Shown: piece by piece, positions 16,664 through 40,087 of the stretch
Numbering within the stretch: position 1 is the stretch's first letter
Layout of the letters: each line of letters begins with the position of its first letter
From: Polytrichum commune
Taxonomy: Eukaryota; Streptophyta; Polytrichopsida; Polytrichales; Polytrichaceae
Length of the DNA: 64,000 nucleotides
NCBI GenBank assembly: GCA_950295325.1
Contig: OX485809.1
Span: 22,630,001-22,694,000, forward strand
Direction: 5' to 3'
Notes under the pieces: generated by a model
Database searches by the model: none
What the model saw: only the letters and a program-made list of their open reading frames with translations
What the model was told of the DNA's origin: nothing
Translations under genes and position numbers: made by a program

Positions 16664-16796
16664 AATAGTCACTAGTCAAATGTGTCTTAGTCAATATATC
16701 ATAGTGTTCATTTGACTAAAGGGGCATTTGTATATTTGACTATACCTCCAACATGCATAATAGACTTTCACTAGTCAATGAAACATATGTACATTA
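16664..16796. repeat. GACTA/TAGTC array, left part
   Basis: About 130 bp with ATAGTCACTAGTCAAA, TTAGTCAA, TTTGACTAAA, TTTGACTATA and CACTAGTCAA. It ends in ATTA directly at the LTR start. Its style matches the arrays at 39565-39720 and 45565-45860. Confidence 0.55.
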
Positions 16797-16931
16797 TGTC
16801 ACGGTATGCGGCATCGGCGGCTGCACCTTATCTGTTGGGCTTCATTCATTTAGAGTTGGATGGATGAACCTTAGTTTTGGAAAGTGAGGCTCCTAAGTGA
16901 GGAGCCTCCTCCTTGGCTTGGCATTCTTGCC
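16797..16931 (+). repeat. Left LTR, 5' portion
   Basis: Its 135 bp align with the first 135 bp of the right LTR (39121-39255) at the same length with only scattered substitutions. It is interrupted after CATTCTTGCC by the Mutator-like element; the rest of the LTR resumes at 33429. Confidence 0.85.
16922..16931. repeat. Target-site duplication of the Mutator-like element, left copy
   Basis: CATTCTTGCC, repeated exactly at 33429-33438. The undisturbed LTR at 39246-39255 has it once. Mutator-superfamily duplications are usually 9-11 bp. Confidence 0.85.
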
Positions 16932-17010
16932 GGGAAACTCAAGTATGTGAGCGTAGAGCGGAGAGCGGAAAGCAGAGAGCAGCGTTTGGAGAGCGGAGAG
17001 TAGAAATTTT
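16932..17010 (+). repeat. Left terminal inverted repeat of the Mutator-like element
   Basis: Starts GGGAAACTCAAG and then TATGTGAGCGTAGAGCGGAG, followed by repeats of GAGAGCGGA. The reverse complement of 33345-33428 starts GGACGACACTTG and then has the same TATGTGAGCGTAGAGCGGAG, also followed by GAGAGCGGA-type repeats. The best matching core is 25-30 bp. Confidence 0.8.
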
Positions 17011-17305
17011 TGGTATAAATTTTGACCAAAAATGGGTGTATTACCGTGGGTTCAGGGGGTATTAGTAGAAACATTTGTTGAAAAGGGAGCCCAATTCCGT
17101 TGAAATATACATAAATTAGGGCTGACGTCAGCACTATGTGAGCCCAATATCATGCCCACATGCGTTCTTAACATTAAAACTTATAAAGCCCTTGGTGGTG
17201 AGTGTTTGATTAAGGAGGTTCATATGTCAGGGGTGGAATTAGATTTAAATGGCCTTCAGTCAAGCATAAGGTTAGCCTAGATGGGAGCCTCATGTGAGTA
17301 GTTGT

Positions 17306-17660
17306 GTGAGGCACCCAATTTTTATTGGAATGGGTTTATGCTACATTGTTTTGTGATTAGCGGTTAAGATTGTGATAGCCATATTGTTTAGGGATACTTA
17401 AACTATACTTAAGGGCTAATCCACAAACTAATTAGATTAGCAGTAATAAATGAAGAATGCAATGCGGGTAGTATGAATTGGAGTGTATTGTATGGTGTAC
17501 AACTTAAGTATTATTGAAAACTTATGATTTAAGGAAACAAGGAGGAGGTGTGTGAGGCAGCAATTTTTTATTGGAATGGGTGTATGCTAGATTGTTTTGT
17601 GACTAGAAGTTAAGAGATCCGAACAATGAAGAAAAAATGAAGAATGCAATGCGGGTTGAC
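17306..17660. repeat. Two-copy direct repeat (~243-bp spacing) inside the Mutator-like element
   Basis: GTGTGAGGCA, then TTTTATTGGAATGGGT and TGCTA-ATTGTTTTGTGA, occur at about 17306-17370 and again at 17549-17612. AATGAAGAATGCAATGCGGGT also appears twice (near 17448 and 17636). It looks like an internal tandem duplication. Confidence 0.65.
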
Positions 17661-17795
17661 ATTATGAATATGAAATAATGGAGAGAAAGAATGAGACTTG
17701 CGCCGGATATCAAAAATAAAACCAACACACAACTTTTTTTAAAGCCGGAAAACAACAACAAACTGAGTTATAATCTCCAAAACCAAAATGATAAA

Positions 17796-20700
17796 CTAAG
17801 GGCTTGGAGAACATTCCCTATCACTCTCCTCACCCTCATTTGCTTCTAACAAGAAAAGATTTCGTGTTCCACGCAAGAAATGACGAACGCGAGGAGGAGG
17901 TGGGGACTCCGCCTTCGCAAAGCAATCCGCCATTGCACTAGCATACGGGGGAAGCTCAACTGGCTTCGGAGGACTTGAAAACATGTCTCGACGAATGACT
18001 GCGTCATCCGATGGCTCTCTAAACACCCAAGCAAAAGGATTAAAAACAGGATGACACTGGAAAATGAGAACCTGAAATCAAGGCAAACATGGCAAAATAT
18101 AGAAAACAAACTTACGCACAAAGGAATCCGAATGTCCGTTTGGTCATCTTCTGAGGAGGATCAAAGATAGATGTAGACGGTGCGGCAACTGAGCGAGATA
18201 TACGCGCAGGCTGGGAATCGCGCATTGGGAGTAGGAGTGCATTGAAAATGATGGGGTCACTCTCAAGGGCCACAATATGCCGCTCAAGGGAGCGACATGC
18301 TGTAATCGAACCACCTAAAGCAAAGAGAGGTAAAAGGTTAGTATGGAAACTAGTCAAGAAAAAATAACGGAAAATTAAAAGTAAGGATGAAGTTGAAAAA
18401 GAAGGCGTACCTACACCACACTGCCAGTCCATAATAACATCATTCTTATCGGTGAGAGTAGCGAGAAAGATGGAAAAAAAAACCATGATGTTTCTCACGG
18501 GCACCTCGCCAAGGTACCCCATCACTGCGCATCGCCTAGCTCTTCTCATCGGTGAAGGTATTTAACCATCCATCTCGCTGGAGGTTGTAACCATACTCTT
18601 GCATGGCCTCCTCCCGCACTCTAAGAACGGAGTTAACATGAACAAGAACCTTGATGCTGAACTTCCGAGTCTGCAACAATGAATACGAATTCATAAGACT
18701 CATTTGAATTGAAATGAGAAGCAATACGAAAGCGGAAGAGAGGGAGAGTTGTTTACCACTCCAGAGGGAACAATGGGAGATTGGAGGTCCAAATCATTCA
18801 TTCCGAACCAATCTTTGGCGACGTAGAAGTCGTAAGTGTGTGCCCAATCGAAAATACTCCTAGAAACACTGGCACTCGTACAATGGGCAAGGACAAGGAC
18901 ACCATGATCATAGAGGTTAGATTTCGCAAATGCAAAAAGACACTCATAGTATGATTCATGGAGCTTGTTCCAAGCAGAAACATCGGTGGAGATGTTGGGC
19001 ACCGGCAAATTCTCGGGAATGTCGGCGAAGAGCAAATCGAGGCCCTTGTGAGTTGTAGTCGAGGTATTCACACGGGAACGACCTTCCCCAACTTGCAATT
19101 AAAACTTCATGAGAAAACAAGAAGGAAAAAAAAAAGCAAACCAAAGGAAAGAAAATTGAGAATTGACGAAGGAAAGTATACAAACCTTGGCAATGAACTC
19201 TTAGATGCGGTTATATGCGGGGAGGGGACCTCCGGAAACCTCGGAATCCAACATTAGTTGAACCATGTCCACATTTTCGATGAGGGCAAGCGTGTTAGGC
19301 GACTCCAAAGAGGTGGCACTGGTATCCAAGAGAGCGGCATTCCTCTTGCGAGGCAAGGAGAGGAGAGAAGTGCCACTGTGAGATGGAGTGGCAAGAGATT
19401 GTGGACGAAATGCCGATGGAGTACCAGAGGGGGCAAGAGAGGGAGCAACGGAGGGAGCAACGGAGGGAGCGATAGATGGACTGTGTGGGAAGGTGGGTGG
19501 CTCAACCGGGGTATTTGAAGCAAACCGAGTGAGAACTTGGGAAGATATTTGCGTGGCGGTCTTCTTTGCTCTGTTCTTTCCCCTTGGTGCTTTAGGCGGA
19601 GGAGGGGGAAGTTCAACAATGTCAGGCTCCTCAAAAGTGACAATGTTATCATCCGGAGCACTACCCACAAGGCTAGCAAACAAAGCCTTCTCTTCTCCGG
19701 TGACAAATCCTGCAGCACAATCCAAGTATCATCCACCACCCTGCAAGTGCAATTCGGAGAACTTGTTTGTTTGCGCGGTCGTGTACACGCAGAGGCTAGA
19801 AAAAACGTTCACCCAGTCCGAGAAATAGGCGGGCAAGGAAGATGATGCTAATGCATTCTTTACAACCAACTCTCTCATGATATACCTACATGACAAAACA
19901 AGAATATAAGAAAACCAAGAAAACGAGCAAAAAATGAGAATAAGGAGAGGTGCAAAGTGGAGGATAGATGTATTACTGATAGACCACATGCTTGATAGCG
20001 AGAGCCCCCTCCTTGAACTCCAAGAGATTATCACCTTTGGCAAAGGGAATGTCAGGCTTATCGCCGAGGTAAGACTTGGAGGCCTTGTCCCAAAAGACAA
20101 TTCGCCAATGATCAACGTACTCACGAGGGCGCAAGATAGTTTCCGATGCGTCCCAGTCAATGTCAACGGAGAGGCTCTCCTCCAAGGTCTCAATGTCAAC
20201 CGCGACTTCCTTCTCCAACTGCATAGAGGGAGATGATTAGATATGAGACAACTAGAATAAAGGAAAATTAAAATGAAGAAGGCCGAGGGATGGATTTACC
20301 TGAGCCCAGAAAGACGCCCTGTGTAGCCAGTCGTCCAAAGCCCTCTCCCTCATAGGCTTGTCGACGGGGAACTTGTTATCCAACCTTTCACGAAGGGGGG
20401 CGTTCCACCAGTGAAGCCACTTAGCTTTGAACGAAGCTTCACCGGGCATGTGACAATTTTTTGCAATTTTTCAATTGTCATGTCCGTCGAAGAGAACTCA
20501 TTAAAATGGCGGTCAATCTGTGCACGTATAAAAAGTAATTTGAATTCAAGAGAGTACTAGAGTTCAAGAGTGATTTGAGTGATTTGAGTTCAAGATAGTT
20601 CAAGAGGAACATTTATAGCATTGGAAATATGAAAATCACGACAAGATACCTCAAAAAAGAAAACATCTCCATTGTCAGGGTGTGCAACGGATATGTATTT

Positions 20701-22186
20701 CTCAAAAGAACGTGCCCGAAATTCTTGATTGTTCTCTCTTGGGCCTTGGTCATAACATTCCAAATCTCAGTGGCCGACCTCTCCGCAACAAGTGTGGTCT
20801 CATGGTAATGTCTCACTGCAAGGTCCGCTTGAGCCGAAATGTCTCTCTACAAGAAATGACCTTGTGAGCCAATATAATCGGCATGTAAATTATCTATGTT
20901 GGAAGCTCTAAATGATTGAAAATTAAAAAACCATACCTTGTAAAGAAACTTAACGAAAACATCCGCCGTCAAGTTGTACCAAGTTGGGCGACTGTCCTTT
21001 ATCTTCTCGCATACTTTGTAGTCAGTTGGAGATATGAGATCCTTAAAGGTCGACAAATCCAACCTCCCAAAAGTGCGGATTCGAAGGAGCTTGGCCGGAA
21101 TGTTTGTCTTCACATAATCATGCTCGGTTGACCTGAGAGAAAAGATGTGAGGAACGTCCAGTGAAAAAAATGGAAAAAAATTGAAACAAATGTGGAAAAA
21201 AAATGGAAAAAAAATGAGTGAGCTTACCAATTAATGTCATTCATGGCATTGAGGAATACACCGGTGTATCCCTTAGGGTCAAGAACAATGCAATCCACCG
21301 AAATATGTCAACTCTTGTCATCGGCGTGGTGGTTATTGATGTGCCTCCACCACGCGGTGAGACGATGATTGCCTTCCAAGACGAAGAACATATTCCCGGC
21401 GAAATGTACAAGATCCGGATCCTCCTTGAGCTTGGCGTCAAAATCTGCGGAGGCCTCTTGCCAGAGAGGGCTTCAAGAGGCCATAATGCCAGGGGGAATG
21501 GGGAGGTCCACGCCAACGTCATTGAAAGCAGACACTTAAAGAACCCGATCACCCTCTCGGTATCCCATTACAAATTCACATTCCAAGCGCTGCACCTCAA
21601 CCTCACTGATAGGACGGACGAGAGGGAGGACTCTCAAGCGGCACAAAGGAATGGATAAGCGGGACTTACCGGTTGGCTTAATCCGGAGGCGTTGGATAAC
21701 ACCAATGGAGTCCTCCTTTTGTGATTTCCGAAGCTCAAGCTCACACACCACAGGATCCGTGTCCACAACTGCCTGTACGGCATCTTGGCTCATTGCGAGA
21801 GCCTAAAAAAAACACAAACAATAAAACCATGCTTAGAAAACTAGAACTCAAAACTTACTCAACAACTTACTCAACAACTTACTCAACAACTATCCAACTC
21901 ACATCTCCTTGCAATAGGCCTTGCGAAGTGAGACTCTCAACCTGGACGGCTTCAACTTCAACCGCGGGGGCCGCAAGAACAACATCCTCTCCAGATTGGG
22001 GTTGCGATTGCGCAACCTGAAAAGAGTTCGAATCCTAAGAACATGGAGAAAATTAGAATTTCCCAAAGGAAAGTCAATATCTTCGTAACTATAAAGAAAC
22101 AAATACTCACAAACTATTTTGAATTCAAAGTAATTCAATTATGAAAAAGGTACCAAACGAGAACCGACCACATTCAAATCCGCCAT
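17796..22186 (-). pseudogene. ParB-like / DNA methyltransferase-like cargo gene, broken
   Basis: Multi-exon minus-strand stretch. Segments read: 22154-22186 (ATG), 21903-22016, 21228-21802, 20937-21132, 20650-20846, ~20300-20517, ~19990-20218, ~19737-19885, a Pro/Ser-rich linker ~19201-19705, 18757 to ~19090, ~18536-18670, 18411 to ~18500, ~18120-18314 and 17796-18026. Segment 21228-21802 has ParB/sulfiredoxin features (IPLCRLRVLPLVRPISE, then FVLEGNHRLTAWW). Segment 18757-19090 has GLDLLFADIPENLP in the place of a DPPY motif, then LYDHGVLVLAHC. The segments at ~18500-18411 and 18314-18120 read GEVPVRNIMVFFS and DVIMDWQCG, then GGSITACRSLERHIVALESD, like the DPFxGxG S-adenosylmethionine motif. 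The order IV then I is that of beta-class DNA amino-methyltransferases. In-frame stops at 21536-21538, 21473-21475 and 21308-21310, a frame break near 20460-20480 and another near 18540 argue for a pseudogene. Confidence 0.6.
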
Positions 22187-22489
22187 CACGATGAAATAGA
22201 AGGTGTCACACGTCCTCGGTTGGAAGCCTACATTCCGTACCTTAGTCTTGTTAATCAATGAAGAACATTTAGATTATCCAACCAACGACCTCGGTAGAGA
22301 GGCTTCATTACATCCTCAAGATTAAACATCCAAAAACAATACAAGGCCGAGAGCAAAGTACACATAAATAAGAGGCCTCTCCCCATAGCTAATTCTTATG
22401 CACAACACAAAGCAAGAAATGGCCGAATGCAAAGTCAAGTGGCCAACTCAAGTATACATAACATTTTGATATTTCTACCACTAACCTAC

Positions 22490-25400
22490 CTACGAATGAG
22501 AGGCCTCGGATCCGAGGCCTCTTCCCATACATCCTCCTTATGCACTACCCAAAACAAGAAGGCCGAGAGAAATATTACATGCACATAATAGTTTAACTTT
22601 TCAAGCACATACATTGACCCTAAAATGAGGCCTCGGATCCGAGGCCTCTTCCCAATCCTCCTCCTTATGCACTATCCAAAACAAGAAGGCCGAGAGCAAT
22701 CTTACATGCACATAACATTTTAACTTTTCAAGCACATACATTGACCCATAAATGAGGCCTCAGATCGGAGGACTCTTCCGAATACTCTTCCTTATGCAAT
22801 AAATAATACAGAAAATGGCCGAGAGCATTCAAATATGAACATAACATTTTAAATTTTCAAGCACATACCTTGACCCATAAATGAGGCCTCAGATCCGAGG
22901 ACTCTTCCGAATACTCTTCCTTATGCAATAAATAATACAGAAAATGGCCGAGAGCATTCAAATATGAACATAACATTTTAAGTTTTCAAGCACATACATT
23001 GACTAAAAAATGAGGCCTCGGATCCGAGGCCTCTTCCCAAAGCTCATCCTTATGCACTACCCAAAACATCAACCCCGAGAGCTTTCAAATATGGACATAA
23101 CATTTTGATTTTTCAAACATGAATCTTGCCTAAAAATTGAGGCCTCGGATCCGAGGCCTCTTCCGAATGCTCTTCCTTATGCAATACATACTACAGAAAA
23201 TGGCCGAGAGGATTCACATATGCACATAACATTTTAAGTTTTCAAGCATAAATATTGACACAAACATGAAGCCTCGCATCCGAGGCCTCTTCCAAAAGCA
23301 CATACTTATTCACTACCCAAAGCAAGAAGGCCGAGAGCATTCAAATATGAACATAACATTTTAAGTTTTCAAGCACATACCTTGACTAAAAAATGAGGCC
23401 TCGGATCCGAGGCCTCTTCCGAATGCCCTTCCTTATGCACTACATAATACAGAAAAATACCGAGAACATTGAAATATGAACATAACATTTTTAAGTTTTC
23501 AAGCACATATTTTGACTCAAAAAAGAGGCCTCGGGTCCGAGGCCTCTTCCGAATGCCCTTCCTTATACACTACATACTACAGAAAATGGCCGAGAGCTTT
23601 CAAATATGGACCTAACATTTTGATTTTTCAAACATGAATCTTGCCTAAAAAATGAGGCCTCGGATCCGAGGCCTCTTCCGAATGTTCTTCCTTATGCAAT
23701 ACATACTACAGAAAATGGCCGAGAGCATTCAAATTTGCACATAACATTTTGATTTTTCAAGCTTAAATATTGACACAAACATGAGCCCTCGGATCCAAGG
23801 CCTCTTCCCAAAGCACCTACTTATTCACTACCCAAAACAAGAAGGCCGAGAACATTCAAATATGAACATAACATTTTAAGTTTTCAAGCACATACCTTGA
23901 CTAAAAAATGAGGCCTCGAATCCGAGGCCTCTTCCGAATGCCCTTCCTTATGTAATACATACTACAGAAAATGGCCGAGAGCTTTCAAATATGGACATAA
24001 CATTTTGATTTTTCAAACATGAATCTTACCTAAAAAATGAGGCCTCGGATCCGAGGCCTCTTCCGAATGCTCTTCCTTATGCAATACATACTACAGAAAA
24101 GGGCCGAGAGCATTCAAATCTGCACATAATATTTTGATTTTTCAAGCTTAAATATTGACACAAACATGAGGCCTCGGATCCGAGGCCTCTTCCCAAAGCA
24201 CCTACTTATTCACTACCCAAAACAAGAAGGCCGAGAGCATTCAAATATGAACATAACATTTTAAGTTTTCAAGCACATACCTTGATTAAAAAATGAGGCC
24301 TCGGATCTGAGGCCTCTTCCAAATGCCCTTCCTTATGCACTATATACTACAGAAAATGGCCGAGAGCATTCAAATATGAACATAACATTTTAAGTTTTTA
24401 ACACATACCTTGACTAAAAAATGAGGCCTCGGATCTGAGGCCTCTTCCGAATGCCCTTCCTTATGCACTACCCAAAACAAGAACCCCGAGAGCTTTCAAG
24501 TATGGACATAACATTTTGATTTTTCAAACATGAATCTTGCCTAAAAAATGAGGCCTTGGATCCGAGGCCTCTTCCGAATGCTCTTCCTTATACAATACAT
24601 ACTACAAAAAATGGCCGAAAGCATTCACATATACACATAACATTTTAAGTTTTCCAGCACATACCTCGACTAAAAAATGAGGCCTCGGATCCAAGGCCTC
24701 TTCCGAATGCCCTTCCTTATGCACTACCCAAAACAAGAACCCCGAGAGCTTTCAAGTATGGACATAACATTTTGATTTTTCAAACATGAATCTTGCCTAA
24801 AAAATGAGGCCTCGGATCCGAGGCATCTTCCGAATGCTCTTCCTTATACACTACATACTACAGAAAATGGCCGAGAGCTTTCAAATATGGACATAAGATT
24901 TTGATTTTTCAAACATGAATCTTGCCTCAAAAATGTGGCCTCGGATCCGAGCCTCTTCCCAAAGCTCCTCCTTATGAACTACCCAAAACATGAAGGCCGA
25001 GAGCATTCAAATATGAACATAACATTTTGAGTTTTCATACATGAATCTTGGCTAAAAAATGAGGCCTCTTCCGAATGCTCCCCTTATGCACTATCCAAAC
25101 CACGAAGGCCGAGAGCAATCTTTTCATGCACATTACATTTTGAATTTTCAAGCACACCGAGAGTACGGAATGGCCGAGAGTAAGGTCCTAGCAAACAGTA
25201 TGGAATGGCCTAGAGTAAGGAATGGCCGACAGAAAATGGCCGAGAGCTTTCAAATATGGACATAACATTTTAAGTTTTCAACACATACCTCGACTCAAAA
25301 ATGAGGCCTCGGATCCGAGGCCTCTTCCGAATGCCCTTCCTTATGCACTACCCAAAACAAGAACCCCGAGAGCATTCAAATATGCACAGAAGATTTTGAT

Positions 25401-25960
25401 TTTTCAAGCACATACCTTGACTCTAAAATGAGGCCTCGGATCCGAGGCCTCTTCCGAATGCTCCCCCTTATGCACTACCCAAAACAAGAAGGCCTAGAGC
25501 AATCTTACATGCACATAACATTTTAAGTTTTCAAGCACATACCTTGACACATAAATGAGGCCTCGGATCCGATGACTCTTCCGAATGCTCTTCCTTATGC
25601 AATATATAATACAGAAAATGGCCAAGAGCATTCAAATATGAATATAACATTTTAAGTTTTCAAGTACATACCTTGACTAAAAAATGAGGCCTCGGATCCG
25701 AGGCCTCTTCCGAATGCTCTTCCTTATGCACTACCCAAAACAAGAACCCCGAGAGCTTTCAAATATGGACATAACATTTTGATTTTTCAAACATGAATCT
25801 TGCCTCAAAAATGAGGCCTCGGATCCGAGCCTCTACCCAAAGCTCCTCCTTATGAACTACCCAAAACATGAAGGCTGAGAGCATTCAAATATGAACATAA
25901 CATTTTGAGTTTTCATACATGAATCTTGACTCAAAAATGAGACCTCTTCCGAATGCTCCT
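22490..25960. repeat. Satellite array, ~128-bp units with a 22-bp palindrome
   Basis: About 27 head-to-tail units. Each has a perfect palindrome (arms GAGGCCTCGGA and TCCGAGGCCTC), CTTCC-AATGCTCTTCCTTATG, a CACTACCCAAAACAAG or ATACATACTACAGAAAA segment, GGCCGAGAGCATTCAAATATG, ACATAACATTTT and TTTCAAGCACATA. Palindromes recur near 22626, 22882, 23010, 23140 and so on to 25815. Some units carry mutated arms. GGCCGAGAGC-type fragments continue in decayed form to about 26360, so the array seems to have grown from local sequence. Confidence 0.9.
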
Positions 25961-26376
25961 CCTTATGCACTATCCAAACCACGAAGGCCGAGAGCAATCT
26001 TTCATGCACTACCTCGAAACCCTACTCGAAACCTCGAAACCCTACCTCTCACATGCTCCTACACCCAAAACAAGACATGGCCGAGAGCAAGTCTAGTGGA
26101 CATTCCATGTACTTTCAAAATCAAGAACCTCACCTCCCTCAAAACCCTACCTCCTACCTACTCACAAAACCCAAATAAAGACATGGCCGAGAGCATGCCA
26201 CTTGCACTTTGCATGTAGTTTGATAACTCAAAACCCTATCTCTAACATATTCCTAAACCCATATCAAGACAAGGCTGAGAGCAAGTCAAGCTAATATTCC
26301 ACATACTATTGGAAACCAAGGTAATACAAACCAAAAACTTCGGCCAACATAGCTTGGCCGAGAGCCGACACCTTAC

Positions 26377-27325
26377 CAGAATTTGGAGTATGCCCTCCAC
26401 TGTATCCCCGATATTGGCGCCACTATCTTCCGATGTCCCGTCCCCTGTCGGCGTTATTGGAGTGCTCCTCGAATCGCCGAGGTTTACTTGCGCCATTCCT
26501 CTCCCGCGTCCACGCCCTCGCCTTGATGTTTGTTGTGTTCCGCCCGCCTTGCTTTGCAGAAATCTTGAAGCAGGGGTCACATTATCTTGAACCAGGGTTT
26601 CAGTGCCTGGGTCTCCTCCTTCAGCTCTTTCGCGGCCTCCCACCAAATTTGATTTGAGATCTTCCTTTGCCGCTTTCTTCTTGGACGCCTTCATTTTTCC
26701 TCTTGCTTGATTCGTTGGCTGTCCCGACACCGGTTCTCGCTCATCTAACGCCTTCTCAGTTTGTTGTGCTACCTCCTCGTTGTCTTCTTCGTAGATATTT
26801 CCACTATCTCCACTCCCCCCATCCCCCTATATTTAACAGCATCCCAATGTTTATAACAATGATAACAAACCGGAATATTTAAAAGAAAGTAATTTCACCG
26901 TTGAATATGTTCTACCATTTTCATTATGTGCTCAAACAACTGAATATATGGAGAACCCGAAGAATACGTACGACACTGGTAGAGTTCGTCTCTTCGCGTG
27001 AGTCCTCTTGGATGTTGTCATTTCCCAACTCCTCCACTTCTGCCATTGTCTGCGCTTTACTTCCGTCCGCCTCTTCTACAATCGGTGATAAATGAAAAGG
27101 CCGAATTTCACAGTCTAGCCTCCACGAAGGTTTCCGCAGGTCCTTTATGCTTTCGTTCAAATCCTGAGGCGTCCCACGGCCCTCGATTGGTGCCTTCCTT
27201 GCCTGTGTCTTCTGTGTCCTCACTGTCTTTCTCTTCTTATCAGTGTAATGTGTAGACGTTCGCCTCCTCTTCTTTTTCTTAGATGGTTCCGCTGTCGGAG
27301 GTTGTGGATTGCCTATTTCTTTCAT
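26377..27325 (-). CDS. Basic, RG-rich N-terminal part of the Mutator-like element's second gene
   Basis: I do not recognise a family. Two exons fit well: 26972-27325 (ATG at 27323-27325, 118 codons, donor GTACGT) and 26377-26826 (150 codons, donor GTAAGG), both phase 0. The protein has KKKKRRRT near residue 20 (a likely nuclear-localisation signal), an acidic middle with EEDNEE, a second basic stretch KASKKKAAKED, and RRGRGRGRG near the end, so it looks disordered and nucleic-acid-binding. The donor at 26376 opens into the satellite. The next open exon in phase 0 is 21903-22016, so this may be the 5' end of the ParB/methyltransferase-like gene, with the satellite inside an intron. That join is inference. 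Confidence 0.5.
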
Positions 27326-27643
27326 GTGTTCAACCCTCCCGCAATTCAGACCTACTCGCTCTATTTCCTTTCCACAACCTGACCACATCAAACTCACACA
27401 TTGGAAAGAAAGTGAGCAATCCCATTCCTCTCAGTATATATTTGCAATACCTCCCGATGGGAGGCGCGCTTCACTATCTGACAACCGTCTTCATAATTAG
27501 GGGTATTTTTTTTTAGGATGCCTGACAATTTTGTCTCTTTCTTATAATTATGCTTATTTGTTTATAACTTCATCGTTATCACCATTCTCCTTCTTTATGG
27601 ATCTTTTCATCTTTGTTCCTTTACGTTTGCGTTCTCTGCCTTC
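27326..27643. promoter_or_regulatory. Divergent intergenic region of the Mutator-like element
   Basis: About 320 bp between the minus-strand RG-rich gene and the plus-strand transposase, AT-rich in its middle (27490-27600). As both genes start here and point away from each other, it is the likely shared promoter. I see no unambiguous TATA box. Confidence 0.4.
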
Positions 27644-30600
27644 ATGGCTTCCACCTCACTTCGTTCCCATGGGATTGGTGTCCCTATTCTTTTCCCCATT
27701 GATGCACAAGGTATTGTTGTTGCTCGGAGCTTCATCTTAGCATTAGGTTCTCTTTCAAACCTAATACAATATGGGTAGAGCATGAGATCCTCCATCCTCA
27801 TACTGGATTGCTCGTTCATACCTTCCATGAGACCTCCAAGTTAACTGACAATGGCATTGTAGTGTGGGAGCTTGCCGCGGGAAAGTATAGGGTTTGTGGC
27901 TGGCCAGATTCTCAGATGGGAGTTTCGACAGAAATCCTTACTCCTCTTCGATCATCCACTGCTGCCTTTAGCACCCCTCCAGTAATAAGTGTCAAGACTG
28001 AGCTTGGTATAGACAACGTTATAGACTTGTCTGATTCTTCGAGTGAAGATGTACCAGTTCAGCATGAAGATGTATCAGTTCATGATTCTCCTCATTTGTT
28101 TTCCTCTTCTGCCTATGTCACGCCTTCTCCTTCTCTCTTTGTGCCTTCACCTTCTTCGGTACCCTCTACGTCCAAACCTCCTCAACCTATTGTTCAATGT
28201 CTTCGTCGTCTTGGTTCTATGCCCGGAAGTAAGAACGTCCTCAAGAAAATAAATTACGATAAACTCAAAATCCAAGTAGTTAATCACCTTCCCCCTCGTT
28301 TCGATGGTACCCAGTTATTTGTCCTCCCAGCAACAGAAGTTTCATCATCTCAAACCAGGGCCAAGTCGTTGGACGGCATGGACAAGCAATATGATGGCCA
28401 TGTTTGGACGAAGACTCAAACCACCAACATTACAAACGACGTTGGCCTTACCTTTCGTTCCTCTGCCTGTGTTGGCCATCTCCAATGCCAAAACCCTAGC
28501 TGTGATTACCTTCAACGCGCCCATCGTACCTCTAAGGTCAACGACACGGAATTCGAAGGTTTCACTAAAGATCCTTTCCCTCTATCTGGCATTGTGCCAT
28601 CCGGATCTACTCTTGTTTGCAGGATCTGCAAAGAGCCTCCCAAATGCATTGCTTTATGCCAGGCGAAAATCTTCTACGTCCATGGGAAGGAGTCATCTCA
28701 AAGAGCCTGCATTCATCTCGGTACTCATCAACATCCAGTAAAGGTTGGAGACTGCAGAGACAGCCGGAAGCGTATCAATGCACTTCTCGAGGAGCACGTT
28801 GAGCGTACGCCTCAAGCCACACACAGCAAGATCGTCCTTGAAGCCAGCAAGGACATTGTTGGTGAGTTCCTCCTTTCTGGCGATAATGACACACACCGAC
28901 CCCTCTCCTTAAAAGAGCTCGAACTTGTTTTTGAGAGCTGTAGAGAGTTGAATTCCCCAAACCTTTGCTCTAAGGTTACATCTTTCAAATATTTGCGGAG
29001 GTTCGGTGTTATGGATGGCATTGCAAAGCTCAGAGGCGTTAGCAATTGGGCCTACGTCCAACGGAACCAATTCCCTGGACAAGGTGACGATGCGGACAAG
29101 GTGTTCGTCTTCAAGATGTCGGAGGTTGGTCCTGGAAGTGGAGTGGATTTGGTTCGTCGTATGCAACCGGGTGGGGACCTGGAGAGCGTGTGGATCATGT
29201 CCGATCACGTCAAGCGGGTCAAAGGGTGGACCACCATGGCTGCTCATATCTACGATGGGACTTATCAACGGGTGATGACCATTTCATGCTGTGATTTCCA
29301 ATCGGAGGATAAGGATGCCCAAGTGCTCTTCTGGCAGAACCTCAACCACGTCATGGCCCGACACGGTATCCCACATCCAACCTTTATTGGCTTCATGGCG
29401 GACAGTGCGCAAGCCAATTGGAACGCTGTTCGCATTGTTTATGGTTCAGGGGATCCCAAAGGTCCAATGGAGGGTCGTGAGCGCACTTGTTTTTTCCATT
29501 GGAAACAATCGCTCAAGAAACATACAAAATCGTATATAAAGCATGAGTTACAAGACCAACATAGACACCTTTGCCTTCAATATCGAAATGCGTCATCTAT
29601 GGAAGAGGCCAAGACTAGGTACCTAGCTATCAAGGCTTGGTGGGCGTCATCGAATTGTACAAGTGAGGACGGTCTCAAGCATCTTCAGCTCTGGCTTGCT
29701 TTTTGGCACTTCCGCTACCTTCAATGGGGTGGTTTCATGGAACTGGTACATCTCCTACATGATTCATTTTTGGTTTTTCTTTGATTCGGTTTCCTCTTTC
29801 TGTACTTATTCTAATACTTGATTTGTCCAATCAGGAAAAAGTTTTGACCCAAGACCAGTTGGCCGAGATGCCGTCCTGCAATCTTGCGGAGTCCGTCCAC
29901 AACAAGTGGCTTCAAGCCTCCGGCAACAAGGGTGGAGATCTATACGTGGTTACGGTGGACGACTACATTCGGGCTTTCTTACAAGTTGTTGCATACTACC
30001 AGTTCCTTAAAGGTGGAATTGGCGGAGATGGTCCAAGCAAAGAGGAACTAAAGCTCAGAGGTGCTCAACGTCGAGCTCAGCGTACTGGCGACCCCACAGT
30101 GTTGCAGAAGGTCTTGCTTGACATGCCCGGTGGAGGAGATTTTTGCACACGCGATCCACACCTTGAGGGCGCCGAGGTCTTTGGATCGCAGAAGCGAAGA
30201 CCGGACACTCCAATTGGTGATGATGGCGAGACCCACCGCCCCGATACCGTGAACTTCTCTCGCCCTCCCCCCGGTAAGCGTGTCACTCGATCTCAACCCG
30301 AAACACTGCCCACTATTATTGAGGAGTTTTCCCCCTCTGTACAAGAGGTCCAAGTGCCTTCACCTGCAGGACTTGGTTTCCATCGTGTCACCGCCGTGCA
30401 AGAAACCAAAGTAGATATCTCTCTTTGGCATATTGCCCGCATACCCTATACCTCTGGGAAGTCTTGTTGGGTTAATCATGCGGGCACGAAGAAGAAGTGC
30501 ACCGCAAGAATCATCACCAATAATAAGAGCGTCCCTGCACCAACCTACACTGGTATGTGGCATCATTACAAACTCCAATCTATGAAGCGCACGGAATTCG

Positions 30601-31310
30601 TCTTTTGCCCAGACGACATTGAGCGTTGCGTAAAGGGCCCTCGTCGGAAATGGGTCATGCCGTTCTCTGCTGATGACCAGAAGCCTCCTATTCCCCCAAT
30701 CTGGCCCGTGAAGATTGGAACCAACCTCACCCGCTCGAAGATCTTCGCCCTTGAGAACGCAGGTTTTCAACTCCCACCAAAGGAGCGCATCACACCGACT
30801 GGACTCTTTACCAACTCTGCTCCCCCACTGGATATGTCTCGAATCCGTGTTCCAAAAAACCCCGACATGATCCCTTCGACAAGATTGTCCAAGCTTGTTC
30901 GGCGATCCAGCAGCGCACCTTCGGCAAAGCAGAGGCAGATGGTGGCCTCTGCTGAAGCTATGCATGGTACTATTCTGAAGTTAACTATGATCCCTCAACC
31001 AGGATTTGGTTGCATTATCACACTGCAGTCCAAATCAGAACCCCAACCACCCATCTACCAAGTCACAGTCAGTTCTCTTCCAGAGTGCAACTGCGCATAC
31101 TTCTTGGATATGATTTCCAAGTTTCGCCGCAAACGAAATTCTTATGTGAATTGTAAGCATCTGTATTACATCTTCATCAAGGTTTCTAATTTGGATATGG
31201 AAGTGAATTTGTTCATTCACGCCCCGACATTTAGCTTCAACGAAGTCAAACTCATCCTCGAAGGGGGGTCTTTTGACAAAGTCTACTTCTTAGAATTTAG
31301 CTCAGCCTAG
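27644..31310 (+). CDS. Mutator-like transposase with SWIM zinc finger
   Basis: Cuts and reinserts the 16.5-kb element. The main frame is open from 27703 to 29745, then has an 89-nt GT-AG intron (29746-29834), then runs from 29835 to the stop at 31310. Counting from 27808 this is 1,137 codons. Features in order: Cys/His cluster CRICKEPPKC and THQHPVKVGDC; the transposase core with HIYDGTYQRV and FMADSAQANW (two likely catalytic Asp) and CFFHWKQSLKKH (the C-x2-H signature); then a SWIM finger with CNC and CKH near 31087-31160. The start is unsettled: ATG at 27644 opens MASTSLRSHGIGVPILF in another frame and would need a small indel near 27735 to join; the first in-frame ATG is 27916. An unusual lineage of Mutator-like transposase is likely. 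Confidence 0.8.
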
Positions 31311-33344
31311 CAGTATATTAGGCTATGATATATGTGTCCATTTTTGGACCTTTTGTGAAGCAATAATTGATTGATATAATAAAAATATAATCTCAATGAT
31401 TATTTTTATTCCATTCAAAGTATCTTACAAAATTTCGTATTACAATGTATCCTATGTCTATCAACTCTATTTCCGTTTTGAATACTTCTTGGATGATTCC
31501 GAGGGAGGTGGATCCGGTCGAAGTAAATCCATATAAGAAACTGTCTTATCTCTCTTTCGATCATTCAGCGGAAGATGATGCGGCGTCATTCCTTTCATCC
31601 GTTCGCGAAATGAAAGAGACTTCGAAGATTCCCCTTGCACCTTCTCGCAACCCTTACTAGCCCCCCTTGACCATCTTGCCAATTTTCAATTCTAGCAAAG
31701 GTTACGAGTGGCTAACCCTTCGCATACCGCCATGCTAATGGTTAGCTCCTCTAACCCCGGACCAATAGTTCATAGGAGGGAACCAACCCTCCTACTTTGC
31801 TTTCGGGACTCACCCCTTAATCGGTAACCCATTTCCCCAATGTGGACTTCCATCCATGGAAGTCCAATCCTATGTTGATCATCGCGTTGCCGGAGCAACA
31901 CTACAACAACCCGAACCATACTAGGCAACTATGGCCTCACAATAGGCCAAAGCCCATGGAGGCCTTGCCGTTCGGCCTCGGGTGGGTGAGGCCACACCAC
32001 CTCACCCATATAAGCCTCTAGGACTCTACGCGGGGCCCCTACCCCACCGTCAACCAACCTCTTGTCTCTCTACCAAGAGTTGGGGCCAAGTGGACATTTT
32101 CCCTTAGCCGCTGGGCCTAGAAGCCCCCAGCAGCTTCAGACCATCATAACTTCCTTGTATGATGTCTGATTCCAGCAACCAACCACTCCATCTTCATGTA
32201 CGCTTCACGTAGATGCCGATGGACTCCTCACTTGCCCCATTCGGGCAAGTGTGAAGGACGTTATGCCTGTTTGAACCTTGGCAGTCCCGGGAATCACTCC
32301 CAGGCACTGCTGTAGCAGGGCGCTGTCCCGGGACAGCGCCCCACTCAAATGGCCATAACTCCTAGCTCACACCTCGGATTGAGGTGTTCTTGAGCATTCT
32401 AGAATCACCGCGCCATGAGCTACGCATAGCTCATGGCCTTACCCTTGTGCCTCCTAGTCTTCGTGGATGGGAGGCGTTCCCAACGCCCGGGGACCTCACC
32501 CACACTAGGATCACTTGGGCCCTCTCACCAACGGCGCCACAAGTCCCGGGTGTCACTCCGGGGTCCCCCTTGTGCCCATGGTGTTTCGGGCACTCCTCAT
32601 GGAGAGGTGCGCGACACACCTTGACCTCCTCCTCCGTTTCGTTCGATTTGTCTTCATCCAAATCAACGTCCTTCTCCGGCACATCTCCCTACCTTTTTAC
32701 TTTTTTCTCATATTGTTTTTGCTCCTCCTGCACCCTCCACCTCCATGTTTGTGTAGACTGCGAAAATGGAGTCAGCTCGTAGTCATCACTACTTCGATTT
32801 CCAACATCAAACTCAAATTCCGGCGATGAATTAAAGGGAATATGAGGATCTCCTAGACTCCTAATTTCCTTCTCCCATCCTAATCCAGCAAACATGTCTC
32901 TCTCATCACCCATTGTATGCAAGTGTATATACAATGATGTTTGGTATGAGTCCAATTTATAATCTATTCGGCCACAAACGATAATTGCTAAAGTCCAAGC
33001 TATAGAATAGACTCACATATAAGACAAATAGAAAAGTAATGAATACAAACCAAAGAAGTTCATTATCTTGATTTTTTGATTTTTTGATTGACTTATTCTT
33101 CAATTATACCAATCTCATAAAATCTGTTTTCATTTATTTTTTCTCGTAATCATCCTTGGTTTTAATAATTCAACCACCTCACGGTTTCCAAACTTAATGA
33201 TACCATTTTAATTTCAGGGCCTTTTATTTTATTTTATGACCTATACATCCCACGGAAATAGGTCCAATTTTTTCTATTATTGGAAGATTCTAGAATATTC
33301 CAGATATATTCTTGGTTTTTTTCAAATATCCTTATTTTAGTCTG
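31311..33344. other. Right arm of the Mutator-like element, no gene seen
   Basis: Transposase 3' flank (AT-rich near 31320-31440), then GC-richer DNA from about 31650 to 32620 with short hairpins, including CACTTGCCC...GGGCAAGTG near 32230, then AT-rich DNA to the terminal repeat. Open frames here lack protein-like composition. Confidence 0.5.
32318..32341. repeat. 24-bp perfect palindrome
   Basis: Arms GGGCGCTGTCCC and GGGACAGCGCCC meet without a spacer. It lies in the right arm of the Mutator-like element. Confidence 0.85.
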
Positions 33345-33428
33345 CCAAGATTACTATTTTATTTCATCTACGCTCTCCGCTCTCAAAATCTCCACTCTCC
33401 GCTCTACGCTCACATACAAGTGTCGTCC
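33345..33428 (-). repeat. Right terminal inverted repeat of the Mutator-like element
   Basis: Inverted match of the left end (16932-17010); the shared core on the minus strand is TATGTGAGCGTAGAGCGGAG. It is followed on the plus strand by the duplicated target CATTCTTGCC. Confidence 0.8.
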
Positions 33429-33637
33429 CATTCTTGCCAAGTCAAGTCTTGTGAGTGAGTGTGTGGAGAGAGCTTGTGTGAGGTATAGATTGCATGTGTT
33501 TGTAATAAATTTTGAGTTCTTCTCCCATCTCTTGTACTCTTGGATTCTTTCTTTGTGAAATGAGAGATAACTTGACTAATTGTGTGCATTTGAAGAGAGA
33601 TTAGAGCTCTTGCAAGGGTTTGACTCTCTCCTTTTCA
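33429..33637 (+). repeat. Left LTR, 3' portion
   Basis: Continues the LTR interrupted at 16931. It begins with the second copy of the target duplication and aligns with 39246-39455, for example AAGTCAAGTCTTGTGAGT, GAGATAACTTGACTAATTG and GTTTGACTCTC. After 33637 the similarity to the right LTR stops. Confidence 0.8.
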
Positions 33638-35094: not shown

Positions 35095-35950
35095 ATGGTT
35101 ACAACTCGGAGCCAACATTATCGTTCTCCGTCTCCGGCACCATCGGAAGGTCGATTCTCGGACCTCTTGGACGTTGAACCAGTAGTAGCACCTGACGTGA
35201 CTTTTCAGCCTACTTTGGCGTGGAGGACTGCCATTCGGTCTCACGTCTTTTGGGTGGGATCCTTTGACGAGATGGAGGAGGAAACGCGAGGCGGCATCCG
35301 GGACCGATTTTCTGGTCGAGCAGGGATCATTTTCCTGCAAGATTGGAAAATTCGGTTCAGGACATGGATGAGGGAGAAGTGTCAACGCAATACCAGTTTC
35401 AATAACTGGTATGCGTTCGAGCTACTCCCCCAACATTTGGAACACGAGGCTCTCCAAACTTATGAGCAGTGAACGAAGGCTCATTGGATGGAGCTGCGCC
35501 ATGTGGAGCGGTACTGGGAGACTCGGGTTGAGTTGGTATCCGCATTGAAGGAATGCGCAACTTCCAGTTTGATGGCCGCCCCTTAGGTTAAGTCGGAGGT
35601 GCCGGAGGGAGCATATGTGGTGGATGTGGAGGGAGCTTCTCATGGTGAACCCAAGAATAAGAATTTTGCTCCCGCTACGGCGAGTACGTCGAGCCCCATT
35701 CTTCCACTTTCCCGTTATGCCCAGGTTACCCAGGCGGCTTTGGCCTCTTTAGGGGCTCCGCCAGCTTTTGAGCCATTGCGGGCATTTGAGCTGCATCTAC
35801 AGGAGGAGTACAGAGGTTTCCGGTGGGACCAGATGCAGCGGATACAAGATTTTCGACGAGAGAAAAACGATATACCTCATACCATGTATACGAGGTTGGC
35901 GAGGTTGGCGAGGTTTGCCAGAGAATCTGGAGGTGTGTTTGCGGAAAGTC
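35095..35950 (+). pseudogene. Gypsy gag-like fragment
   Basis: Starts with ATG (MVTTRSQHYRSPSPAPSEGR), a common beginning for plant gypsy gag proteins. It continues in one frame through in-frame stops at 35470-35472 and near 35585. The segment near 35760-35930 (EEYRGFRWDQM...TMYTRLARLARFARESG) looks like the capsid region. No CCHC zinc knuckle or protease motif DTGA follows; the sequence passes almost directly into the reverse transcriptase, so an internal deletion is likely. Confidence 0.65.
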
Positions 35951-35959
35951 ATCGAAGAA

Positions 35960-37134
35960 GGATATCTTTGGCAATTGGATGGAGAAGCGGATGTGCGGGG
36001 ATTACCGTCCAGTTAACCGGAAGACCAAGTCGGATCGGTATCCCATGCCAATCCCCGAGGAGTTATTCGATGCCATCGGATTTTCTCGAGCTTTAGCACC
36101 CTAAACTTGAGATCCGGCTATCACCAGCTCCCATTACTTGCGGGAGATCGAGTGAAAACCGCATTCTGGGGAGTTGATCATGATGAGAATGATCAACTTT
36201 ACCATTGGAAATTTCTTCCATTTGGCCTCAAGAATGCGTTTGCCGAGTTTCAGAGAGTGATGGACCAAGTCCTCTCTGGTTTGTCTTTTGCTCGGTGTTA
36301 TATTGATGACGTGATCATTTTCAGCAAAACACCACAGGAGCATATAAAGCATTTTCAAGCCGTTTTTGAGCGATTACGGCGGTGGGGATTGCACTTGCAC
36401 CATGGCAAGTGCAAGTTTTTCCATGACCGACTAGCATATCTAGGTCATATGATTATTCCAGGAGGTCTTGGGGTGCAACAAGCTAAAATGGACGCCTTGC
36501 AGAAGATCCCGGCACCGGTCGATGTGCCAAGACTTCGTGCTTTCTTGGGCTTGGCGAATTACTATCGTCGATTCGTTAAGAGCTTTAGCTTGATCGCCAA
36601 GCCTCTTACCATTCTCACGAGTAATGACCAACCTTGGACTTGGGGTCGTGAGCAGCAACAGGCATTTGAGACATTGAAGCAAAAATTGGGTGCGGCTCCA
36701 GTGCTTCTACGTTCAGATGTCTCTAAATCCTTCCAATTGCATACGGATTGGAGTTCATCGGGTTTGGGAGTAATTCTTACTCAGAAGGATGATTTTGGTC
36801 GGGAGTATGTTATTGCTTACGCTTCGCGAAGCAATAATACGGCGGAGGCTAATTATTCATCCTACGAGAGAGAAGCATCGGCGGCGGTATGGGCTATTAC
36901 CCATTTTCGGCCATATCTTTATGGTCAGCACTTTACTTTAGTGACTGACCATCAGCCGTTACGGTGGCTCATGGAATCAGATAAACATATTGGCAAGCTT
37001 GCCAGGTGGACTTTGTTGCTCCAGGAGTATGACTTTGAGGTGGTACACCGTGCTGGGATTACCAACATGGATGCAGATGGACTCTCACGCTATCCAAGTC
37101 TTTCGGATGAGGACTTGACCGGGGCCAAGTGGCA
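35960..37134 (+). pseudogene. Gypsy reverse transcriptase and RNase H
   Basis: Reverse transcriptase begins near MCGDYRPVNRKTKSDRYPMP, shifts frame near 36090, then reads LRSGYHQL, PFGLKNAFAEFQRVM and the catalytic YIDDVIIFS near 36297. RNase H follows with TDWSSSGLG, YEREASAAVWAI and TDHQPLRWL. The product would copy element RNA into DNA. The frame fails again near 37134, so it is not functional here. Confidence 0.88.
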
Positions 37135-38357
37135 TGGAGATTGTGATCGAGAGGCGGTTCCAGGTTGCTTACCTCACTTTATTTTCTGGTACATCTGTTG
37201 AGATTCCGATACAGAACTCGGATGATGAGATTGATCGGCCTCAAGCTATTTCGGACATATGGGAGGATCTTCCCGTATTGCATAAGTTTCAACAGGGTAC
37301 CTTTCCTTTGTCTATTTCGGCAATGGAAAGGGATAGGATTGGACATCGAATAACAAGGTTCCGTTGGGAGAACGGTTTGTTATTTCGATTGTGGCCGGAT
37401 GGAACAAGGCGTATTGTTTCTAGGCCGGATCAGAAGGCCTCCTTGGTGCGACAAGTGCACGAGGAACTTGGCCATTTTGGCATACGCAGGACACATTCGA
37501 TGTTGCATGGCCAATATTGGTGGACTGGTATGTATCAGCAGGTGGCTGCCTATGTTGGGAGGTGTGAAGTTTGTGACTGGGTCAAGTCTAGCTTTAACAC
37601 CTTATCACCTCAGTTACAGCCTATACTTATCATGGGATTGGACTACTGTTGGTCGCTAGACTTTGCAGGGCCGTTGGTGGTTACACCACGTGGAGCAAAG
37701 TACGTTTTGGTGATGGTGGAGCATTTTAGCAAGTGGATTAAGCTTGTTGCTCTGCCCCAAAACTCTGCAGAGTTGGCCGCGGCCGCCTTTTTGGATCGTG
37801 TGTTAGCACGTTTTGGAGCACCGGCTGAGGTGTTGACGGACCAAGGGAAGAAGTTCCTTGGTACTTTTGAGGAGTTGTGCACTAAGGTGCTCACAGATCA
37901 CCGTACCACCTCTTGGGATCATCCGGAGGCAGATGACTTGGCTGAACGGGTTGTTCAGACAACCAAACGTGGCTTGAGGAAGTATGGATTACTTCGGGGG
38001 AGCCACCGGGATTGGGACCTTATATTGCCTTGGATTGCTATGGGCTATCAATTTAGTAGGCATGCCTCTTTGGCATCCTACAGCCCGTATCAGTTATTGT
38101 ATGGACGTGAGCCTATTATCCCGAGTTCTATTCAAGAAAAGTTAACTCCTGTTGTGGATTTGGATGACCCAAACATTTGGGCAGAGTGTTTGCAGGAGCG
38201 GGCTCTATTCTTCCAGAGGGCCATGCCTATGCCCATGGAGAATTTGTCCATTGCTCAGCACCGTGACACATTGCGTTATGCACGCATTCGCAGTGGTGCT
38301 TACCAACCTCAGTTGTGGAAATTCCGGCAAGGGGATTTATGTTTATCTCCAACGTGA
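37134..38357 (+). pseudogene. Gypsy integrase
   Basis: The zinc-binding HHCC region is visible (VHEELGHFGIRRTH, then CEVCDW). The catalytic core has SLDFAGP, TDQGKKF and DLAERVVQ, giving the expected D, D and E. The C-terminal part reads to LRYARIRSGAYQPQLWKF; another frameshift near 38340 then moves the frame into the PHD-bearing end. It inserts element cDNA into the genome in intact relatives. Confidence 0.88.
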
Positions 38358-38730
38358 GGCGCCTACAACATTGGATGTCAGGGTGGGGCGCACTATCCTT
38401 CGGGTGAAGAAGGTGTTGCCGAGTGGTTTGTTGTTGTTGGAAGGCAATGATGGCAAGGAATGTCGCGAGCATCCCAAAAATTGTGCCCCATGTCATCTAC
38501 CCATTGAGGGTACAGTTCATCCTGAACTTGCCGTCATGCCAGAGGGTCTTCTATGTTTTGTGTGTGGAGAGAAGAAAAGAGCGGCTACTATACTCTTGTG
38601 TGATCAGTGTCAACGTGGTTGGCACATGGCATGCTTGAGGCCACCCTTGACTTCTCTACCATCTGGACAGTGGAGTTGTCCTCGCTGTCGAGGATTTTCG
38701 GTACTTGGTGTTTCCACCAATCGTATTTAA
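38340..38730 (+). pseudogene. C-terminal region of gypsy pol with PHD finger
   Basis: After the integrase frameshift the frame reads YLQREAPTTLDVRVGR, a small beta-rich part (RVKKVLPSGLLLLEGNDG) and then a PHD zinc finger at 38554-38688: CFVC, CDQC, GWHMAC and CPRC, the Cys4-His-Cys3 pattern. It ends at a stop at 38728-38730. The finger sits where chromoviruses carry a chromodomain, so a histone-tail-reading role in target choice is plausible but inferred. Confidence 0.75.
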
Positions 38731-39012: not shown

Positions 39013-39118
39013 TGTCGAGATGTGTTGTTCATGTGTGACCTTGCTATGTTTTAATGTTGTTTGTTAGTGGTGGTTGGTACTCGAGCTGCAATGATACACG
39101 ATCGGTATTAACACGACA
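39013..39118 (+). repeat. Extra LTR-tail copy upstream of the right LTR
   Basis: 106 bp starting TGTCGAGATG and ending CACGACA, nearly identical to the last part of the right LTR (39455-39560). It gives a tail-LTR-tail layout. Confidence 0.8.
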
Positions 39119-39120
39119 TT

Positions 39121-39560
39121 TGTCACGGTATGCGACGTTGGCAGCCGCACCTTATCCGTTGGGCTTCATCCATTTAGAGTTGGATAGATGAACCTTAGTT
39201 CTGGAAAGTGCGGCTCCTAAGTGAGGAGCCTCCTCCTTGGCTTGGCATTCTTGCCAAGTCAAGTCTTGTGAGTAAGTGTGTGGAAAGAGCTTGTGTGAGG
39301 TGTAGATTGCATGTGTTTGCAATAAATCTTTAGTTCTTCTCCCATCTCTTGCACTCTTGGATTCTTCCTTTGTGGAGTGAGAGATAGCTTGACTAATTGT
39401 GTGCATTTGAAGAGAGATTAAAGCTCTTACAAGGATTTGACTCTCTTCCTTCTTTATCGAGATGTGTTGTTCATGTGTGACCTTGCTATGTTTTAGTGTT
39501 GTTTGTTAGTGGTGGTTGGTACTCGAGCTGCAATGACACACGATCGGTATTTACACGACA
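39121..39560 (+). repeat. Right LTR of the gypsy element
   Basis: 440 bp, TG...CA ends. The first ~335 bp match the split left LTR (16797-16931 plus 33429-33637). The last 106 bp repeat 39013-39118. ATTA follows, matching the bases before the left LTR. Confidence 0.75.
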
Positions 39561-39720: not shown

Positions 39721-40087
39721 TGGTTTTTTATGGTGTTATTGACTACATCATGGGGATATGTAACTGGGATATATAATGACTAGGTCAATGAAGCCTATCA
39801 AAGCAGGAGAAGAGTTATTTGCATACTATCCTGTAAATTTTTGAAAAATTGAGGTCAGCATTGGACCAATAGATCAGAAGGGGGTGGGTAGGTAGGTCCC
39901 AATACACGAAGAACAATTTTGGTATCCTTGATTGAACCTTTGACTTTTGTTTAGAGGCCTAGTTTGTTTACAAATGACTTGTACTTCAAATTGTAAATAA
40001 ATGTTTTGCATTGGTTTAATTGTGACATTTACACATGATTCATGAGATTTCAATAATTGGCAGGGGTCAGATCTCGAGTTAGCGGCA

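Follow-up and report, generated by a model that had tools for sequence, protein, structure and literature searches.

Transposons that carry a gene for a ParB-like and methyltransferase-like protein are known from algae. According to the available excerpts of its description (PMC12477816), the large DNA transposon Sola1-1_Ec32 (Sola) of Ectocarpus harbors, on the strand opposite the transposase, an accessory gene of approximately 1100 codons that was read as ParB-like plus N4C/N6A methyltransferase. Its authors suggest that the protein binds and modifies its own transposon, and they cite transposon proteins of green and red algae (Iyer 2011; Petroll 2025). In Arabidopsis, the VANC protein binds short motifs that accumulate in the fast-changing tandem repeats of VANDAL elements, as stated in the excerpted text of PMC5735166. 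Our literature search, confined to the topmost papers listed and with most subscription papers outside its coverage, led to one relevant paper, that on Ectocarpus, and among those papers we found no land-plant transposon with a ParB-methyltransferase gene; the words "methyltransferase" and "ParB" are absent from the text of a review of Mutator elements. Here, we describe a Mutator-like element in a 64,000-nucleotide stretch of the Polytrichum commune genome (contig OX485809.1, positions 22,630,001 to 22,694,000; hereafter the window). It encodes a methyltransferase-like protein and contains a tandem array whose units carry a palindrome. The reading that we favor, and in which we place about even confidence, is that the gene belongs to the transposon, that the C-terminal half of its product descends from a bacterial or phage-type beta-class amino-methyltransferase, and that this protein binds the palindromes of the array to recognize the copies of its own element.

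The Mutator-like element and its copies

The sequences flanking the element (16791–16951 and 33429–33633) match one uninterrupted stretch of the window, 39116–39451, at 89% and 93%. Because the joint of this empty site shows a 10-bp target-site duplication (TSD) with inverted repeats inside, the element extends from 16932 to 33428 (table 1). Its designation as Mutator-like follows from the TSD and the terminal inverted repeats (TIRs), not from a transposase family match. The Pfam families of Mutator-like elements (MULEs) gave no match at E ≤ 1 with the transposase open reading frames (ORFs) of the window, and Transposase_mut was detected weakly (E 0.18) in one of the 23 transposase homologs checked by Pfam. 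The transposase has 52 homologs at E ≤ 1e-3, nearly all unnamed metagenomic proteins, the best of which is 93% identical. The alignment contains three conserved D columns (at 527, 557, and 593 of P0014), and the C-terminal end of the transposase carries C-x-C ... C-x-H, which we take to resemble a SWIM finger. An earlier note, made from the sequence alone, had proposed that a Mutator-like transposon carries the methyltransferase-like gene; the empty site, the TIRs, the TSD, and the transposase alongside bear this out.

The peptides quoted in that note all occur on the minus strand within 22186–17796. One of them, VPVRNIMVFFS, is indeed present in the window but stems from a wrong frame of a damaged copy: a single frame in the sister loci L177, L178, L180, L182, and L183 reads ..GAREKHP[VI]FFSILLAT[LF]TDKNDVIMDWQCGV or nearly so. 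The window gene is broken by in-frame stops and frame changes. A search of the source genome, covering 408 Mb in 64 contigs and nearly all of it in seven large contigs, located the methyltransferase exon at no fewer than 150 places (150 scored of 973 candidates) and the N-terminal part at 47 or more.

To describe the layout, we took 20 kb around ten of these 47 places, mostly picked for open frames, and joined neighboring stretches. Together with the window copy (W), the ten other loci (A to J) bring the total to 13 N-terminal genes in 11 loci, and the methyltransferase domain lies downstream of the N-terminal part in nine of the 11. A relative of the transposase is encoded upstream on the opposite strand for eight of the 13 genes (W, A, D, E, F, I, J, and J_2) and on the same strand as the N-terminal gene in G; the DNA fetched for B, C, C_2, and H contains no transposase. 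A tandem array is found at most 4 kb upstream of 11 genes, that is, all but E and C_2. TIR pairs with exact TSDs enclose transposase, array, and gene in D, F, I, and J (10, 10, 10, and 9 bp, respectively), which, with the 10 bp of W, places all five within the 9–11 bp of MULEs. TIRs are accordingly present in five of the 11 loci; none were found at A, C, E, G, and H, and a 420-bp repeat pair at B was not read as TIRs.

The N-terminal sequences form five subfamilies with 37–57% protein identity, and this bears on whether the gene could be a captured or decaying passenger without a role for the element. Such an origin would agree with the lesions that mar the window copy and all three copies retrieved at full length. 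In L185, the frame changes in exon 10; L187 shows this change plus a stop, and L186 contains two insertions. A passenger origin is nevertheless highly improbable, given that the same gene, orientation, and array recur across several subfamilies at these identities, that there are at least 150 copies, and that dN/dS is well under 1. Between sister copies, this ratio is 0.17–0.20 in the ParB-like exons (18–21 changes), 0.28–0.29 in the middle part, and 0.52–0.55 in a low-complexity linker. The protein is under purifying selection.

Descent of the two halves of the protein

The C-terminal half is a relative of the permuted beta-class (N6_N4_Mtase-type) methyltransferases, a descent that is well supported by the comparisons below. 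The test set for the profiles comprised 146 phage contigs with 1391 ORFs; 120 of these contigs had been fetched for the pattern DLPYGTT..KWD. A profile built from the window and seven sequences of the fern Adiantum nelumboides ranks the 113 motif-bearing phage ORFs at the top (area under the curve, AUC, 0.995; best E 9e-8), and 78 of its 83 matches at E < 1e-3 are methyltransferases of the DLPYGTT..KWD type. The window-only profile (AUC 0.974) yields eight matches below the same threshold, all of this type. Five column shuffles and the reversed profile gave no match at E < 1e-3 (AUC 0.31–0.62), their best one, at 0.0018, being to a non-methyltransferase; a chance reading of the methyltransferase motifs was rejected on these grounds.

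With hhalign, the phage methyltransferase family comes first of 40 phage families with a probability of 94.4%, rising to 95.2% (E 2.8e-8) when a sister copy is added; this alignment spans 184 columns from motif IV to motif I, and the runner-up family reaches 1.6%. Motif IV precedes motif I in the collinear alignment with the phage enzymes, which is the permuted, beta-class order that the earlier note had recognized. Two phage members and one ParB fusion checked by Pfam are PF01555. For the corresponding half of the sister copy L185, PF01555 is the sole match among 24736 Pfam models (E 0.16), at 12.3 bits and so below the curated cut-off of 26.7, and the window pieces match no family. Finally, the best PDB matches of a seven-sequence profile are DpnA-type and CcrM methyltransferases (E 0.018).

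Homologs of the whole protein were found in A. nelumboides. A first search returned three proteins (E 2e-12 to 3e-7) and a second one 13, the earlier three included, all from that single species. The alignment covers both halves of the window protein, at approximately 24% identity, and the methyltransferase half alone matches P0003 by BLASTP (E 5e-4). Because of these matches, the reading of the window gene goes beyond chance. Pfam, NCBIfam, and PHROGs searches with the Adiantum proteins gave nothing informative apart from one weak Methyltransf_23 (E 0.15); no useful match came from a PDB sequence search with P0001 or A4, from a search of P0003 against viral contigs, or from Rfam. Weak similarity to LEA_4 marks the start of four fern proteins (P0001, P0002, P0003, and P0005), and P0009 carries a fused retrotransposon gag domain; both features would be gene-model artifacts or captured exons.

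Motif I, which binds S-adenosylmethionine (SAM), is recognizable throughout (DWQCGVG, DVIASTG, DLTASTG, DLTCSTG, ELGAGTG, and EIGGGTG), and the domain can probably bind SAM. Motif IV is more divergent. The ten closest loci, among them the window, have DIPEN here, H has ADLPEG, B, C_2, and D have AEYPDG (EYPDR in E), and J has LQFPDG; the four Adiantum proteins having this segment show IDLPTG or LDLPFEG. None of the resulting tetrapeptides (DIPE, DLPE, EYPD, and QFPD; DLPT and DLPF in Adiantum) agrees with the catalytic (D/N/S)-P-P-(aromatic) consensus: all lack the first proline, a single one has the aromatic residue, and two subfamilies lack even the acid. The earlier note had suspected a loss or change of catalysis from the ADIP of the window. 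Since ADIPEN is shared by ten of the ten closest loci, we rejected decay of the window copy as the cause. The doubt about catalysis stands because E or Q occupies the position of the catalytic D in some subfamilies. Methylation by this domain is therefore doubtful and may differ between subfamilies, some of which have a motif IV that speaks against ordinary chemistry.

These motifs also bear on a mark-writing role, the idea of the earlier note and of the Ectocarpus authors, in which an active methyltransferase would add N6-methyladenine or N4-methylcytosine to the arrays or copies of its own element, so that the element labels itself. Such an activity would be in keeping with the N6_N4_Mtase descent, with the SAM motif kept in Adiantum and in every subfamily seen, with the catalytic D kept in the window subfamily, H, and Adiantum, and with the frequency of DLP-type motifs IV among phage members of PF01555. 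We consider it rather unlikely, as position four of motif IV holds E, D, or T rather than an aromatic residue (P0012, with F, is the exception) and the catalytic D is replaced by E in the largest subfamily and by Q in J.

The identity of the N-terminal half is less clear. A segment MFFVxEGNHR, conserved between the window and Adiantum, resembles the G-x-x-R box of ParB/Srx proteins, and the earlier note had called a ParB domain here. Pfam found no match to PF02195 (ParB_N) at E ≤ 1, and hhalign against 13–29 phage ParB domains gave 0.1–0.7%, at rank 12 to 39 of 40 phage families, the aligned piece being the GNHR box. We consequently rejected ParB as an established label; the reference consisted of phage sequences of one narrow kind, and the low score is therefore no proof against ParB. 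At the level of profiles, the comparison with PF02195 and N6_N4_Mtase that the note had proposed came out for the methyltransferase family and not for ParB. Five ORFs of the phage set (L130–L133 and L135) have a ParB-type N-terminus before a DPPY methyltransferase (Pfam was run on L131 only).

The palindromes of the tandem array

Each unit of the window array carries GAGGCCTCGGATCCGAGGCCTC, a perfect 22-bp palindrome, or a near copy of it. Two sister copies on other chromosomes have the same palindrome in their arrays. Among sites with at most four mismatches, these sister copies have 24 of 26 and 21 of 28 exact, and the decayed copy of the window has 11 of 24. Between copies, the palindrome is 94–98% identical, versus 41–59% for the flanking 60 and 40 bp. 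It is also the most repeated in each array (11, 24, and 21 times) of the 82 22-mers common to the three, and it stays while the unit length varies (127–129, 117, 96 bp, and others). The element thus has what characterizes the targets of VANC on VANDAL elements, namely, element-specific tandem repeats with a multiplied motif.

GAGGCCTCGGATCCGAGGCCTC is absent from all ten other loci. The arrays of I and J contain unrelated palindromes with arms of 10–14 bp and that of C yet another, with an arm of 12. None of 200 unit shuffles reached a long palindrome in each of three cases, I/J, C, and the 129-bp unit of the window, and the weaker palindrome of A (arm 8) was reached by one to three of 200. 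A palindrome constrained beyond its repeat unit and differing between subfamilies is what would be expected of a site co-evolving with the element's own protein.

Given the constrained palindrome, the selected protein, and the precedent of VANC, we favor self-recognition through the array. The protein would most likely bind the palindromes in the shared upstream region that separates its gene from that of the transposase, and by means of the array it could tell copies of its own element from the rest of the genome. The outcome would most likely be to keep or raise the expression of these copies, either through anti-silencing of the kind that VANC exerts on VANDAL elements or through autoregulation.

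The position of the arrays upstream of the transposase gene would also suit a protein that binds them to build a transposition complex or to regulate the transposase, with no part in silencing; large autonomous elements of plants frequently depend on a second, inner-repeat-binding protein. We regard this as unlikely, since the arrays of W, A, D, and J_2 lie mid-element, between both genes and away from the TIRs, and I and J possess an additional array beyond the transposase. Quite improbable, in turn, is the broader proposition of a land-plant transposon family with a self-addressing system, in which a prokaryotic-type ParB-methyltransferase protein and co-evolving palindrome arrays would serve to write a mark other than 5-methylcytosine (N4-methylcytosine or N6-methyladenine), or an equivalent SAM-dependent signal, on the element's own copies only.

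Several points weigh against self-recognition or weaken the evidence on the protein. The binder of the palindrome could instead be the transposase or a different protein. The arrays of B, D, E, F, G, and H show no palindrome excess over shuffles. Conservation of the palindrome in C is on a par with that of its neighbors (0.926 vs. 0.884 and 0.915), the conservation figures for I/J are biased by the choice of matching sites, and the palindrome can be compared with changed surroundings in just one of the three subfamilies with long palindromes. As to the protein, the methyltransferase domain was not found at loci A and G, no copy among the window, L185, L186, and L187 is intact end to end, and the dN/dS of exons 9–12 (0.37–0.48) is inflated because of frame changes in the copies. 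The phage set is rich in one methyltransferase type because it was fetched with the DLPYGTT..KWD pattern. Five of the 83 profile matches are not of this type; among the four of them listed, L131 is PF01555 by Pfam and L135 looks like one, the others being L119 and L046. The Adiantum-only profile reaches an AUC of 0.990 with a best E of just 0.011. Lastly, no protein named as Adiantum occurs among the 52 transposase homologs.

Other features and comparison with known systems

Table 1. Coordinates of the element, its parts, and its empty site within the window
Feature	Position	Strand	Evidence or remark
Whole Mutator-like element, 16.5 kb	16932..33428	none	Empty site, TIRs, exact 10-bp TSD
TSD CATTCTTGCC, left	16922..16931		10 bp, exact
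TSD CATTCTTGCC, right	33429..33438		10 bp, exact
Left TIR, matched part	16943..16969	+	27 bp, 96%; repeat itself from 16932
Right TIR, matched part	33391..33417	-	Partner of the 27-bp, 96% match
Insertion-site copy without element	39116..39451	+	Matches both element flanks
ParB-like/methyltransferase-like gene	17796..22186	-	About 12 exons read by eye, plausible splice sites; damaged; first exon (22186-22154) uncertain
Exon with IPLCR and VLEGNHRLTAWW, "ParB-like" part	21228..21802	-	Homolog alignment; ParB membership unsupported
Exon with motif IV region GLDLLFADIPENLP	18757..19092	-	Profile and sister-copy comparison
Exon leading to motif I (DVIMDWQCGV)	18411..18670	-	Frame change in window copy
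Exon with remaining SAM-binding region, GGSITACRSLERHIVALESDP	18116..18314	-	Profile comparison
Tandem array, 129-bp unit x 27.1	22500..25946	none	Each unit with GAGGCCTCGGATCCGAGGCCTC or near copy
Possible further element gene, two ORFs (194 and 168 aa)	26242..27430	-	ORFs only; between array and transposase
Transposase ORFs	27703..31310	+	Faces methyltransferase-like gene across tandem array

The two ORFs between array and transposase have many basic and low-complexity stretches and are perhaps a third gene of the element. The observed/expected CpG ratio, calculated without a control for coding content, is 0.73 in the element versus 0.40 and 0.55 in its flanks, which would fit a young or little-methylated element. 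A perfect 24-bp palindrome, GGGCGCTGTCCCGGGACAGCGCCC, at 32318–32341 recurs in insertions of approximately 1 kb inside the gene copy L186 and is therefore part of another small repeat nested in these elements. Outside the element, retroelement ORFs (reverse transcriptase and integrase-like) occupy 35587–38730; their end, CFVCGEKKRAATILLCDQCQRGWHMACLRPP, resembles a PHD finger fused to the polyprotein. Likewise, a 538-aa ORF at 40046–41662 resembles a CACTA/TNP2-type transposase, and exons at 0.5–5.5 kb of the window resemble the ciliary gene WDR35.

Among known systems, the phage ParB-methyltransferase fusions (PF02195 plus PF01555) share with this protein a homologous methyltransferase half and the order of an N-terminal module followed by a permuted methyltransferase. 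They differ in that the ParB module is here unrecognizable by profile and DPPY or DLPY is replaced. The centromere arrays of ParB-parS and sopC likewise consist of tandem units, each with an inverted repeat, near the gene of the presumed binder; this likeness is an analogy only and implies no partition function. Closer in setting is VANC, likened here by description: it too is encoded by a Mutator-like element, and its short motif is multiplied in repeats that differ between related elements. In the excerpted text of PMC5735166, the VANC motifs are 8–9-bp and non-palindromic, and no methyltransferase domain is mentioned.

Ectocarpus Sola1-1_Ec32 resembles this element in the orientation of the gene opposite the transposase, in its reading as ParB-like plus methyltransferase, and in its location in a large DNA transposon. 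By description only, it is set apart as a Sola element of a brown alga, unlike the Mutator-like element of a plant genome with fern relatives that we report, and tandem palindrome arrays do not figure in the excerpted account (PMC12477816). Already known, therefore, are ParB-methyltransferase genes in algal transposons; the 22-bp palindrome carried by tandem units is new. Our results carry transposon-borne genes of this kind beyond the algae, into a plant genome and into a fern whose homologs may likewise be transposon-borne, and they tie them to a Mutator-like element by an empty site and target duplications. They also name a candidate target, a 22-bp palindrome multiplied in the divergent upstream region of the element, which makes the suggested role assayable. 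Should the methyltransferase prove active in some of the subfamilies and dead in the rest, the family would offer a natural test of whether these elements require a mark or a bound protein alone.

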